A model generated the notes under the pieces. The model ran no database searches and was not told where the DNA came from. It worked only from the letters and a program-made list of their open reading frames with translations. The position numbers and the translations under genes are program-made. From a virus, in the IMG/VR virus record IMGVR_UViG_3300036760_000158, positions 1 to 20,903 of that record: a DNA stretch of 20,903 nt; one strand, written 5' to 3'. How positions within the stretch are numbered: the first letter of the stretch is position 1; every line of letters starts with the position of its first letter. This document shows positions 3,819 to 16,367 of the stretch, piece after piece.

Positions 3819-4252
3819 GGACTATTTTCATGGACCGTGGCCGCGCCTCCGTCTTGCGTCCCGATAACGCACCGCGGCAAGGGACCAGCGCCTATTCCTG
3901 TATATAGAGATAGAGCTAGACCATGGCACGTGTGCTGTGGCTCGTGACACGCGTGCTGTGGCACGTGGCACGTAGGACTAAGTACTTGTTTCTCCTGTCC
4001 TATTCCTACAAAACATGAGTAACAAGAGGGGTGAGAGTAACGAGAGAGGGGAGATTAGCGCACGCGTTTCCCAGGGAAAGCTCACCCCCGGCTGACCCTC
4101 CAGTTCGGGTGGGTCGGCTCCGGCCGGCGCGACCCGGCTGGCATACCCGAGCGTGTCCTTGGCTGCGACATACCAAGCACGGGGCAGGTCCGTCTGACCT
4201 GGCGTAGGCCGGGTGCCGCGTACGTCCAGCCGGCCGTAAGTCCCCGTTCCCT
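3819..4252. promoter_or_regulatory. Repeat-rich intergenic control region
   Basis: This stretch separates the leftward operon from the rightward late genes. It holds a TATATAGAGATAGAG AT-rich patch (3901-3915), two and a third imperfect 21-bp repeats (3927-3976), the 9-mer CCTATTCCT on both sides of them (3891-3899 and 3999-4007), and a purine-rich double repeat of GAGTAAC followed by AGAGGGG-like sequence (4017-4051). A weak rightward promoter is possible (TTGTTT at 3986-3991, TACAAA at 4007-4012, spacer only 15). The only protein-like content is the uncertain frame at 4015-4259. It could be an operator region or a replication origin with iterons; nothing decides between them. Confidence 0.4.
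3927..3976 (+). repeat. 21-bp imperfect tandem repeats with CACG...CGTG ends
   Basis: Units 3927-3947 and 3948-3968 match at 18 of 21 positions and share GTGCTGTGGC; a third copy starts at 3969 (CACGTAGG) and fades. Each full unit begins with CACG and closes with CGTG, so each is also an inverted repeat, as expected of a dimer-binding site. They sit directly after the AT-rich patch. Confidence 0.5.
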
Positions 4253-6710: not shown

Positions 6711-7261
6711 TTGGACGCCCTGGCGGGCCTGATCTCAGCCTATGCCGTGCGCCTCGGGGGCTGGCCCCGGCTGGTGCCCGTGGGCTACGAGGAACTCTCG
6801 GTCGGCGCCGCGGCCCCATCGCCCAGGGCTCCCAGCCGACCGCGGCGACGGCGGGCAACGTGCGGCGCGTGTTGGCCACGACCGAGGGGGCGCTGTTCGT
6901 CCAACTCGGGAGTAGCAACCGCTTCTCGTGCTTCATCCAGGCCGTCACGGTCATGACCCAGTGCCAGGCCGCTCCCGCTGCTGGACTCCGGGCCTACGTG
7001 ACGAGCCTCATCGCTGATAACCAAGTGGCCACTGTCCAGACCCTCGACGTGACGTTCGGGACGGGCGCCAACTGCGCGACGGGGACCACGGCCCTGACCC
7101 ACAAGTTCCAGTTTGGCACGAACGGGACGACGACCTCGCCCTTCCAGGTGAGGGCGACGTTTCCCACGCCCCTGATTCCGACCGCCGCGAACGCCATCTG
7201 TATCCGGCCCTCGGCGGCGACCGCGTTCGGCGCCACGCTGACCGGCTTCATCGCGCCGTGA
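6711..7261 (+). CDS. Beta-rich protein, gene interrupted by an apparent -1 shift
   Basis: The C-terminal 130 residues are clear (NVRRVLATTEGALFVQLG ... CFIQAVTVMTQCQ ... TVQTLDVTFGTGANC ... ending GATLTGFIAP) in the frame closing at TGA 7259-7261. That frame has no good start. Three nt after the previous stop, a TTG at 6711 opens another frame with plausible residues (DALAGLISAYAVRLGGWPRL, then VPVGYEELSVGAAAP). A -1 shift near GCGGCCCCATC (about 6814-6824) joins them as ...GAAAPIAQGSQPTAATAG..., which reads naturally. There is no canonical slippery heptamer, so a one-base loss in the C run or a real mutation is likelier than programmed shifting. A shorter start at GTG 6860 is possible. Cys pairs recall the exported protein at 5775. 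The stop overlaps the large terminase start. Confidence 0.45.
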
Positions 7262-12649: not shown

Positions 12650-12869
12650 ACGGGAGAAGGTGGTCCGCGCCTATCAGGCCTTCTTCGAGACCGTGGACGG
12701 CCAGGTGATCCTCGCGGACCTGGACACGAACTTTGGGACCCGGACCAGTTACGTGAAGGGCGACACCCACCAGACCGCGTTCCATGAGGGTCAGCGTGAC
12801 GTGGTGGCCCTGATCCACGCCCGCCGTCGGCTCACGCGCACCCAGACCCAGGAGAAGGCGACCGTATGA
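12639..12869 (+). CDS. Bbp19-like small phage protein
   Basis: A 76-residue protein with the pattern AYQAFFETVDGQVILADLDTNF ... HQTAFHEGQRDVVALIHARRR. This corresponds to the family named after Bordetella phage BPP-1 Bbp19 ('aF..vF.t..G..VL.dL...f......f.......t...eGqR.vv..I'), encoded between connector and scaffold in many podoviruses; the assignment is by memory of the family pattern. Function unproved. It overlaps the connector end by 11 nt and shares ATGA with the scaffold gene. Confidence 0.75.
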   Translation: MADEREKVVRAYQAFFETVDGQVILADLDTNFGTRTSYVKGDTHQTAFHEGQRDVVALIHARRRLTRTQTQEKATV

Positions 12870-13732
12870 CGATCGAAGCCGCAGCGACCACCGGAACCGA
12901 GGGCGCAGCCGGCGCAGGCACTGGGGCCCCGGCCTCAGCAGGGGCCGTGACGCCACCCGCAGCCGGGACTGGGACGGGCCTCCCCGCCGACTGGCGCTCG
13001 GGCCTGGCGCCCGACATCGCGGGTCATGCCTCCATCAAGACGTTCAAGACGCCAGGGGACCTGGCCAAGTCCCATGTCGAGGCGCAGGCCCTGATCGGCC
13101 GCTCGATCCAGGTGCCTGGGGCCGCCGAACCGCGCGAGGCCTGGGACCGGGTCTGGAACAAGCTGGGCCGGCCTGAGGCCGCGACCGGGTACGTGCTCAA
13201 GGACCCGGTCCTGCCCGAGGTCGCCGGCAAGTGGGACCCGGAACGGACCAAGAACTTCATGCCATTGGCGCACTCCATTGGGCTCTCCAACTGGCAGGCC
13301 CAGCAGGTGCTCGATGCGTTCGGCCAGCACCTGGCCTCGGCCGCCCAGCCCGCCCGCCCCAGCGTGGACGCGAAGGCGGCCGAGGCGAAGCTCCGTGGCG
13401 CGTGGGGCGGGGCCTTCGAGAAGAACATCGAGGCCGCGAAGCGGTCCATCGCGTTCGCTGGGGGCGAGGAACTGCGTCAGGCGCTCCATGAGACCGGTGC
13501 TGGGTCCCACCCCGCCGTCATCGCGGCCCTGGCCCGGTTTGGGCACCTGCTGGTCGAAGACCAGTTGATTGCCGCGGACGGGGCACTGGCCACGGGCAAT
13601 GACCAGGCCGAGCTGACCAAAATCCTGAACGCGCCCAAGGACCACCCGTTCTGGGACAAGCTCCACGCGGGGCACAAGGACGCGGTCGCCCAGGTCACGC
13701 GACTGAACGAAAAGATTCACGGCAAGGCGTAA
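12866..13732 (+). CDS. Capsid scaffolding protein
   Basis: A 288-residue protein placed directly before the capsid gene. Residues 1-40 are low-complexity Ala/Gly/Thr. Then LPADWRSGLAPDIAGHASIKTFKTPGDLAKSHVEAQALIGRSIQVP, the conserved block of podoviral scaffolds ('W...l.....ik.fk...dlAksy...q.liG..i..P'), followed by KLGRPEAATGYVL. The C-terminal half is helical and charged, ending in basic VTRLNEKIHGKA, the usual capsid-binding end. It would fill the procapsid and leave before or during packaging. Its ATG overlaps the Bbp19-like stop. The next feature is the first tRNA, 15 nt downstream. Confidence 0.85.
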   Translation: MTIEAAATTGTEGAAGAGTGAPASAGAVTPPAAGTGTGLPADWRSGLAPDIAGHASIKTFKTPGDLAKSHVEAQALIGRSIQVPGAAEPREAWDRVWNKLGRPEAATGYVLKDPVLPEVAGKWDPERTKNFMPLAHSIGLSNWQAQQVLDAFGQHLASAAQPARPSVDAKAAEAKLRGAWGGAFEKNIEAAKRSIAFAGGEELRQALHETGAGSHPAVIAALARFGHLLVEDQLIAADGALATGNDQAELTKILNAPKDHPFWDKLHAGHKDAVAQVTRLNEKIHGKA

Positions 13733-13747
13733 TCGCCGTGCCCAAGT

Positions 13748-13820
13748 GTGACGGACCCCCGACGGGGGCTGCCGGCCTGTGAAGCCGGGGCGTAGGGTTC
13801 AACTCCCTACCGTCACCCCA
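13748..13820 (+). tRNA. tRNA-His (GTG), with abnormal D-arm
   Basis: Acceptor GTGACGG (13748-13754) pairs perfectly with CCGTCAC (13810-13816), then C73 and an encoded CCA. Anticodon stem CCGGC/GCCGG is perfect, with loop CTGTGAA and anticodon GTG. The T-arm TAGGG-TTCAACT-CCCTA is normal. C73 is the tRNA-His discriminator, but the -1 base is T, so the His-specific G-1 is not encoded. The D region is only CCCCC-GAC-GGGGG, without U8 and without the G18-G19 pair that docks on the T-loop. It is either a functional but unusual tRNA or a drifting one. Confidence 0.7.
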
Positions 13821-13826
13821 TCGCAC

Positions 13827-13901
13827 GCGAACGTAGCTCAGATGTAGAGCCGCGGTTTTGTAAATCGCAGGTCGGAGACTCAAGCCCTCCCGTTCGCGCC
13901 A
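13827..13901 (+). tRNA. tRNA-Thr (TGT), with weak T-arm
   Basis: Acceptor GCGAACG pairs perfectly with CGTTCGC; discriminator G and CCA are encoded. U8-A9 and D-stem GCTC/GAGC are standard, but the D-loop AGATGTA lacks GG. Anticodon stem GCGGT/ATCGC has one G:T; loop TTTGTAA gives anticodon TGT, reading ACA. The T-arm GGAGA-CTCAAGC-CCTCC has an A53:C61 mismatch and C instead of T54, which is unusual. Six nt separate it from the tRNA-His. Confidence 0.7.
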
Positions 13902-13908
13902 TTCAGGT

Positions 13909-13983
13909 AGCGGGGTAGATCAGCGGCAGATCGCCGGGCTCATAACCCGGAGGCCGTGGGTTCAAATCCCACCCCCGCAACCA
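13909..13983 (+). tRNA. Initiator tRNA-fMet (CAT)
   Basis: The gene shows the initiator hallmarks. Positions 1 and 72 are A and A, unpaired, while 2-7 pair (GCGGGG/CCCCGC). The anticodon stem CCGGG/CCCGG has the three consecutive G:C pairs next to loop CTCATAA. The D-stem GATC/GATC has A11:U24, the purine-pyrimidine order of initiators. The D-loop AGCGGCA has GG; T-arm GTGGG-TTCAAAT-CCCAC is perfect; A73 and CCA are encoded. An elongator Met tRNA would have a paired 1:72 and a different anticodon stem. It would be formylated and start translation at AUG-type codons. It is the best-formed of the three tRNAs. Confidence 0.9.
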
Positions 13984-14210
13984 ACTTGTAGAACAGTCCC
14001 GGGGACCCCGCGAGGGTCCGGGTGCTTCCGCGACAAGCATCGCGGCGTGCAGCCTCGCGTCAGCAGGAAGAAGGGTCGGCATTCAGCCGGCAACCCTCCG
14101 ATGACACGACCATCGCAAAGCACCGCCACGGCATGTGGTGCGTGCAGGAAGGTTCGTGTTGGTCACGTCGCAACAGACGGGCCATCGCGGCCTAACCGGA
14201 GGGTCCTACC
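13984..14210 (+). promoter_or_regulatory. Structured leader between tRNA-fMet and the capsid gene
   Basis: No convincing frame is present. Stem-loops visible: 13998-14022 (GGACCC/GGGTCC plus CCC/GGG with a GG bulge); two mutually exclusive or pseudoknotted hairpins, TGCTT/AAGCA (14023-14039) and CCGCGA/TCGCGG (14028-14045); and 14072-14097 (AGGGTCGGC pairing with GCCG...ACCCT around ATTCA). CCAC/GTGG and TGTTG/CAACA pairs follow. It ends in GGAGG (14198-14202), the capsid Shine-Dalgarno. It could be a processing or stability element for the highly expressed capsid mRNA, or a switch. No T-run terminator is seen. Confidence 0.45.
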
Positions 14211-15089
14211 ATTTCCTTCCAAGTCACCACAGCCTTTGTTCAGCAGTATCGGTCGACCCTGGAGCGTCTCGTCCAGCAGGGCGGGTCCCGGCTCCGCAGC
14301 GCAGTCCGTACCGAGACCCAGGTCGGCAAGAACGAGTTCTTCGATCGTATCGGCGCCGTGACGGCCCGCAAGGTCACGACGCGCCACGACGACAGCCCCC
14401 TGATCTCGACGCCCCACGACCGGCGCCGGGTGTCCCTGGTCGACTACGACTGGGGTGACCTGATCGACAACCAGGACCGCGTGCGGCTGCTGGTCGATCC
14501 GGGGAGCACGTACTCGGAGAACGCGCGGGATGCCTTCGGGCGTGCCATCGACGACGAGATCATCAACGCCGCGTTCGGCACGGCGTACAGCGGTGAGGAC
14601 GGGTCCACCACGGTGGCCTTCCCCGCCGGCAACCAGGTGGCCGTGAACTTCAAGATCGGTGGGGGTGGCGCCAACGGGAGCCTGACCCTCGACAAGATTC
14701 TCGAAGGGAAGCGGCTGATGGACAACGCCGAGGTCCCCAACGAGAACCGATACATCGTCGCGTCGAGCAAGGAGTTCCAGAACCTCCTGAACACGACCAC
14801 GGTCCTGAGCTCGGACTACAACACGGTGAAGGCCCTGGTCAACGGCCAGCCCGGCACCCTGTACGGGTTCGAGTTCCTCCGTTCGGAGCGCCTGCTCGTG
14901 AACGGCTCCTCGCAGAACCGGGTCATCGCGTTCCAGCGTGACGGCCTGCTGCTGAGTATCGCCGCGGACATCACGGTCGAGATGGCGAAGCGCCCTGACA
15001 AGCGGTTCGCGCTCTACGTGTACGTGTGCATGTCCATCGGGGCCACCCGCATGGAAGAGGCGCGCGTCATCGAGCTGATCAGCGCGTAA
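14211..15089 (+). CDS. Major capsid protein, AUU start
   Basis: A 292-residue capsid protein of the podoviral type grouped as Phage_capsid_2 (family by memory). Conserved stretches: FQVTTAFVQQYRSTLERLVQQ at the start, RKVTTRHDDSPLISTPHDRR, VDYDWGDLIDNQDRVRLLVDP, FGRAIDDEIINAAFG, GEDGSTTVAFPAGNQVAV. In this frame the nearest upstream stop is TAA at 14193, and the first ATG/GTG/TTG is GTG 14358, which would delete about 49 conserved N-terminal residues. The only start with a Shine-Dalgarno (GGAGG, 8-nt spacing) is ATT at 14211, so the gene appears to begin with AUU, unless a base is wrong. Capsid protein is the most abundant virion component. A stable hairpin follows the stop. Confidence 0.88.
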   Translation: MSFQVTTAFVQQYRSTLERLVQQGGSRLRSAVRTETQVGKNEFFDRIGAVTARKVTTRHDDSPLISTPHDRRRVSLVDYDWGDLIDNQDRVRLLVDPGSTYSENARDAFGRAIDDEIINAAFGTAYSGEDGSTTVAFPAGNQVAVNFKIGGGGANGSLTLDKILEGKRLMDNAEVPNENRYIVASSKEFQNLLNTTTVLSSDYNTVKALVNGQPGTLYGFEFLRSERLLVNGSSQNRVIAFQRDGLLLSIAADITVEMAKRPDKRFALYVYVCMSIGATRMEEARVIELISA

Positions 15090-15755: not shown

Positions 15756-16367
15756 GTGGCCAGTATCGTGGAGATTGCCTCGAACGCGCTCCGGCTCCTG
15801 GGTGCCAAGCCCGTGACGAGCCTGGACGACGACTCCGAGCGCGCTCGCCAGGTGAACGCCTTCTGGCCCAATTGCCGGGACGCGACCCTCCGCGCGTACC
15901 CGTGGAAGTTCGCGTCCACGCGTGCCGCGCTCGGGCAGTTGGCCGCCGGCCCGCTCTGGGAGTACGCGTACGCGTACCAGCTCCCGACCTCGCCATGGTG
16001 TCTCCGGGTGCTGCGCACGAACCTGGACGACGTGAAGGTCCCCTGGACCCTGGAGGCCGACCGCACGCTGGTGACGGACGCCACGTCCGTTTCCATCAAG
16101 TACACCGCGCGGATCACGGACCCGGGCTCGTACGATGCCTCCTTCGAGTCCGCAGTGACGGCCCGCCTGGCCTGTGACCTGGCGTATCCGGTGGCCGCGA
16201 ACCGTGGCCTGGCCCAGGACATGTGGCAGTTGTACCGGTTCAAGATGCAGGAGGCCCGGTTCCTGGACTCGGGCGAGGCCTCGCCCACGGGCATCGTCTC
16301 CGATGACCTGATCACGGCGCGTCTCTCGGGCGGCACCGCCTTCCTCCCGATCCGGGTCATTTCCTGA
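15756..16367 (+). CDS. Tail tubular protein A-like adaptor (gp11/gatekeeper ring)
   Basis: A 203-residue protein from GTG 15756 after AAAGGTGA. The N-terminus ASIVEIASNALRLLGAKPVTSLDDDSERARQVNAFWPNCRDATLRAYPWKFA is the classic opening of podoviral adaptors ('i.NraL..lGe..I.slddds..A..c...y...rd.vLr..pW.FA'). A beta region (YAYAYQLPTSPWCLRVLRTNLD) and a final helix bundle follow (SAVTARLACDLAYPV, DMWQLYRFKMQEARFLDSGE). The product forms a ring between connector and nozzle. The stop overlaps the nozzle start (TGATG), so the two are made together. Confidence 0.85.
   Translation: MASIVEIASNALRLLGAKPVTSLDDDSERARQVNAFWPNCRDATLRAYPWKFASTRAALGQLAAGPLWEYAYAYQLPTSPWCLRVLRTNLDDVKVPWTLEADRTLVTDATSVSIKYTARITDPGSYDASFESAVTARLACDLAYPVAANRGLAQDMWQLYRFKMQEARFLDSGEASPTGIVSDDLITARLSGGTAFLPIRVIS

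Follow-up and report, generated by a model that had tools for sequence, protein, structure and literature searches.

The tRNA gene at positions 13909-13983 of the IMG/VR virus contig analyzed here (20.9 kb; "the window" is this whole stretch of DNA) is, beyond reasonable doubt from its identity elements, an initiator tRNA. We consider it probable, at roughly 0.8, that this phage gene yields a functional initiator tRNA, enlarging the initiator pool. The contig carries integrase, terminase, portal, scaffold-type, capsid, and tail genes and is that of a podovirus-like, integrase-bearing virus. The relatives of the portal are in pelagiphages and other phages, all below 40% identity, and the best match among capsid relatives in bacterial genomes has 49% identity, in scattered MAGs, from which no host was assigned. 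The tRNA gene at 13909-13983 comes last in a three-tRNA array (His, Thr, fMet), which separates the scaffold-type gene from the major capsid gene. The region has the following features.

12866-13732, + strand: structural gene upstream of the array, called scaffold-type from its position (PHROG 3742; weak match to protease PHROG 458)
13748-13820, + strand: tRNA-His(GUG), array member (ARAGORN)
13827-13901, + strand: tRNA-Thr(UGU) with encoded CCA and an abnormal T arm (A53×C61, loop CUCAAGC; Rfam, 53 bits)
13909-13983, + strand: initiator tRNA-fMet(CAU) with encoded CCA and A1×A72 (ARAGORN, Rfam, direct feature reading, and published class frequencies)
13984-14210, + strand: structured leader of the capsid gene (fold z-score −2.3)
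14198-14203, + strand: Shine-Dalgarno-like GGAGGG, 7 nt before the ATT (sequence)
14211-15089, + strand: major capsid protein gene with an apparent ATT start (PHROG 3437, E 1.7e-71; start alignment; coding pattern of codons 2-49)

The ORFs of the structural block that flanks the array are intact and lie on the same strand as the initiator tRNA, which is placed between the PHROG 3742 gene and the PHROG 3437 capsid gene. Host contamination is an unlikely source of the tRNA, given the virus record and the position within a structural gene block.

The tRNA-Thr(UGU), which was found by Rfam and not called by ARAGORN, looks partly degraded. Codon compensation was considered as the reason for the array, and ACA, with 11 of the 318 Thr codons, gives no clear reason for tRNA-Thr(UGU); CAC makes up 63 of the 82 His codons. 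Initiation is not a matter of codon usage. The nucleotide at 13747, position −1 of the tRNA-His gene, is T, not G. Elsewhere in the window, 1268-1307, which by eye resembles the 5′ half of tRNA-Ala(CGC) and stops just past the anticodon loop, is a possible attachment site; the integrase gene (1348-2328) follows some 40 nt downstream.

Identity elements of the tRNA

ARAGORN called a tRNA-Met(cat) with borders at exactly 13909-13983, and the Rfam tRNA match has 66.8 bits (E 8e-13). Divided by element, the gene reads AGCGGGG TA GATC AGCGGCA GATC G CCGGG CTCATAA CCCGG AGGCC GTGGG TTCAAAT CCCAC CCCCGCA A CCA. Direct reading of the acceptor, AGCGGGG/CCCCGCA, gives an unpaired A1×A72 at 1:72, with 2-7:66-71 paired. 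The D stem, GATC/GATC, gives A11:U24, and the anticodon stem, CCGGG/CCCGG, gives GGG:CCC at 29-31:39-41. The anticodon loop is CUCAUAA, the T loop is UUCAAAU, and the cloverleaf is intact, with the CAU anticodon, A73, and a CCA end encoded in the gene. The three hallmarks that had been named in the preliminary description, the unpaired A1:A72, three G:C pairs in the anticodon stem, and A11:U24, were all found.

These elements were compared with published class tables for 9,917 bacterial CAU tRNAs (PMC5143459). A11:U24 is present in 4430/4438 bacterial initiators and in 0/5479 elongator Met or Ile2 tRNAs, while GGG:CCC at 29-31:39-41 is present in 3849/4438 initiators and 3/5479 other CAU tRNAs (PMC5143459). 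The A1×A72 mismatch occurs in 39/4438 initiators, 0/2762 Met, and 2/2717 Ile2 tRNAs, thus in 2/5479 of the others (PMC5143459, Table 2). Together, the identity elements and the class frequencies make the initiator class secure, and they agree with the earlier view that this is not an elongator Met tRNA; nor is it a lysidine Ile2 tRNA. A profile from which the diagnostic positions were left out gives an intermediate score, 6.5 bits, between the initiator and non-initiator ranges, which overlap, and does not decide the class; it counts in favor of an elongator Met or Ile2 tRNA mistaken for an initiator, but such a tRNA would have C11:G24 and a paired 1:72, neither of which is present, and with the frequencies above we regard that class as ruled out, with practically no chance of being correct.

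Known initiator tRNAs and capsid relatives

Bacterial tRNA-fMet genes (for example L320 and L330, from the phylum of G010) have the same hallmarks as 13909-13983 and 90-92% identity over aligned positions. However, the sampled bacterial initiators have C1 or U1, U27, and G12:C23, whereas the phage gene has A1, C27, and U12:A23. The tRNA-fMet genes of Stenotrophomonas phage vB_Sm_QDWS359 and the related Bradleyvirinae Xanthomonas phage DoCa5 and Janthinobacterium phage Donnerlittchen resemble it in A11:U24, C27:G43, and the encoded CCA, with 85-87% identity for QDWS359 and DoCa5 and 80% for Donnerlittchen. They differ in having C1 or U1 and in being located just after the terminase gene, while 13909-13983 is located before the capsid gene. 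The initiators of mycobacteriophages Myrna and Erdmann share A1 with a 1:72 mismatch, C27:G43, and A11:U24, but their mismatch is A1×C72 rather than A1×A72, their CCA is not encoded, and they belong to large tRNA arrays in genomes of >150 kb.

Phage initiator tRNAs had been described at first as uncommon, and the searches do not support a rarity that would make them notable. BLAST found tRNAs similar to 13909-13983 in 309 phage records, some of them annotated as tRNA-fMet. Not all of these are initiators: part of the initiator set is missing from the matches in V1VFA-S, Philippe, and BUCTxx99. Strict initiator motifs were found in at least 120 stretches of IMG/VR viral contigs and in 12 more (at least 132), and these contigs may include some host DNA. 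A phage initiator tRNA is an established kind of cargo and involves no new mechanism. Hybrid CAU tRNAs, which have A11:U24 and lack the complete GGG:CCC, were seen at L150, L231, L267, and other viral loci; such hybrids, intermediate between the initiator and elongator types, make up 6 of the 28 non-initiator CAU tRNAs.

Among 105 distinct viral initiators, obtained in part from phage searches with some bias from the query, 7 have A1×A72, 28 have C27:G43, and in 27 the bases at 1:72 could pair. Neither A1×A72 nor a pairable 1:72 is present among 46 distinct bacterial initiators, a narrow sample drawn mainly from the G007 and G010 phyla, and all 46 have U27. The A1×A72 of 13909-13983 is rare, not unique. 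A phage-specific C27:G43 signature (28/105 viral vs 0/46 bacterial) is not claimed, since the phage searches were in part query-biased and only two phyla are well sampled; the pair may be a mark of the host lineage instead of phage origin. At 1, 12:23, and 27:43 the gene departs from every sampled bacterial copy, and in the stems both partners have changed, which preserves the pairing. Its C27:G43, where every sampled bacterial initiator has U27, speaks against recent copying from a host, as judged against the two phyla sampled.

The closest capsid relative, L024, is an 8 kb contig with 82% capsid identity. No initiator tRNA was found in this contig, which has a single tRNA-Gln(CUG) at 4094-4168, at the scaffold-capsid junction. 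The initiator tRNA is thus not fixed at this junction in the lineage. In about 100 further relatives, the sole contig with any tRNA call is L021, on the opposite strand. The tRNA-Gln(CUG) of L024 and 13909-13983 have in common A1, a 7-nt D loop, and CGGGCTC..AACCCG. From their letters, the two may be related through an anticodon switch in one of them, or the likeness may be due to chance.

Proposed role of the phage initiator tRNA

In the proposed role, the tRNA would be transcribed together with the late structural genes and processed from the transcript by host enzymes. Host MetRS would then charge it, the host transformylase would formylate it, and IF2 would bring it to the P site, where it would sustain initiation while the host initiator is limiting. 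Resupply of this kind is favored because the identity set is complete, the CCA is encoded, the structural block is intact, and similar tRNAs are present in many unrelated phages. The lack of an initiator tRNA in L024 and the partly degraded tRNA-Thr count against it. The preliminary description suggested that the phage tRNA could replace the host initiator late in infection, which is a plausible idea.

The host initiator would most likely be limited either by tRNA cleavage by defense or toxin RNases or by a very high late-gene demand. Cleavage of host tRNA-fMet at the A38-C39 position is published for some VapC toxins (PMC4105405), as is the proposal that phages use their own tRNAs for resupply against tRNases (PMC10264068). 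However, the latter paper states that as a rule tRNA-fMet is not encoded by phages where it is a target of VapC-LT2 (PMC10264068). The CUCAUAA loop of 13909-13983 is the ordinary bacterial initiator loop, with the 38/39 site unchanged, and 27:43 differs from the sampled phyla, perhaps not from the host. Since the loop is ordinary at the cut site, VapC resistance of the phage tRNA is not supported, and supply by dosage would be a simpler form of resupply than cleavage resistance. Taken by itself, tRNase attack as the reason for the resupply is a tentative idea, to which we give somewhat less than even odds.

A different role for the array would be that of RNA punctuation, in which RNase P and 3′ nucleases free a separate capsid mRNA with a structured leader, and the identity of the tRNAs is of minor importance. 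Both this contig and L024 carry one or more tRNAs exactly at the scaffold-capsid junction, with different identities, and in both a structured leader follows (z −2.3 here and −2.0 in L024). However, if processing were all that counted, one would not expect the full initiator identity, with A11:U24 and GGG:CCC among its elements, to persist, and almost all of the other relatives have no tRNA at this junction, so we consider punctuation unlikely. The leader at 13984-14210 matched no Rfam family; a hairpin within it, GGGUCGGC..GCCGGCAACCC, is common to L024.

The tRNA could also be passive cargo, gained by recombination, unselected, and decaying. The abnormal T arm of the tRNA-Thr in the array and the different tRNA content of L024 are in keeping with this, but the fMet copy retains every identity element despite its differences at 1, 12:23, and 27:43, with the stems compensated. 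Passive cargo is, like punctuation, an improbable account, and we return to resupply as the preferred reading.

The apparent AUU start of the capsid gene

The major capsid gene seems, from its sequence, to begin at the AUU at 14211. Its reading frame is closed upstream by a TAA at 14193 and contains no ATG, GTG, or TTG before 14358. The ATT at 14211-14213 aligns with residue 1 of the capsid family, and a standard start (ATG, GTG, or TTG) is found within 3 codons of the aligned site in 102 of 103 capsid relatives, the exception having upstream ATGs. In comparison with L024, codons 2-49 have 8, 5, and 17 changes at codon positions 1, 2, and 3, the same pattern as in the rest of the gene, with 32, 28, and 86. 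Because codons 2-49 diverge as coding sequence, the start of translation most likely lies ahead of codon 50. The ATT may instead be a single-base sequencing error; no near-identical contig for comparison at this site was found among the viral contigs searched. Among E. coli genes, infC and pcnB start with AUU. No phage case of an AUU start was found in the literature searched.

The preliminary description had related the tRNA to many non-AUG starts, GTG, TTG, and possibly ATT. What stood of this is the apparent ATT of one gene, the major capsid gene, based on the alignment and the absence of ATG, GTG, and TTG, together with GTG starts at 15756, for tail tubular protein A, and at 7258, for the terminase, where an ATG directly follows. 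These GTG starts are readable by ordinary initiators.

The tRNA might then chiefly aid non-AUG starts, above all the capsid AUU, if greater P-site occupancy allowed weak codon pairing to be tolerated. The apparent ATT start with GGAGGG 7 nt upstream, the coding pattern that begins at codon 2, and the end of the tRNA gene 227 nt upstream of the ATT speak for this. However, the anticodon and the GGG:CCC stem are canonical, which gives no visible change in codon reading, and IF3, which disfavors non-canonical starts, is the known discriminator against them, not the tRNA supply (PMC2268962). Furthermore, initiator tRNAs are present in many phages, where they are not known to be linked to AUU starts. 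L024 has a tRNA at the junction together with an ATG capsid start, showing that a junction tRNA does not require a non-standard start, and the premise falls if one base is wrong. We thus consider this role very unlikely and favor resupply over special support for non-AUG starts. A link between the capsid AUU and the phage initiator tRNA is speculation, and it would be a long shot that the capsid is truly AUU-initiated and that the upstream tRNA makes this start work, as a self-supplied switch for late structural output.

The initiator tRNA at 13909-13983 is one more case in a large set, distinguished by the rarity of its 1:72 mismatch and by the small size of the virus, and the frequent occurrence of strict initiator motifs in viral contigs gives context for the published statement on avoidance of tRNA-fMet where it is a VapC target (PMC10264068). 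The tRNA gene is of a kind already known, and the capsid AUU start is the more unusual part. The setting is useful: the gene with the apparent AUU start encodes a virion protein that is required in hundreds of copies, and it lies beside a phage initiator tRNA, which offers a concrete test for an influence of such tRNAs on the choice of start codon.
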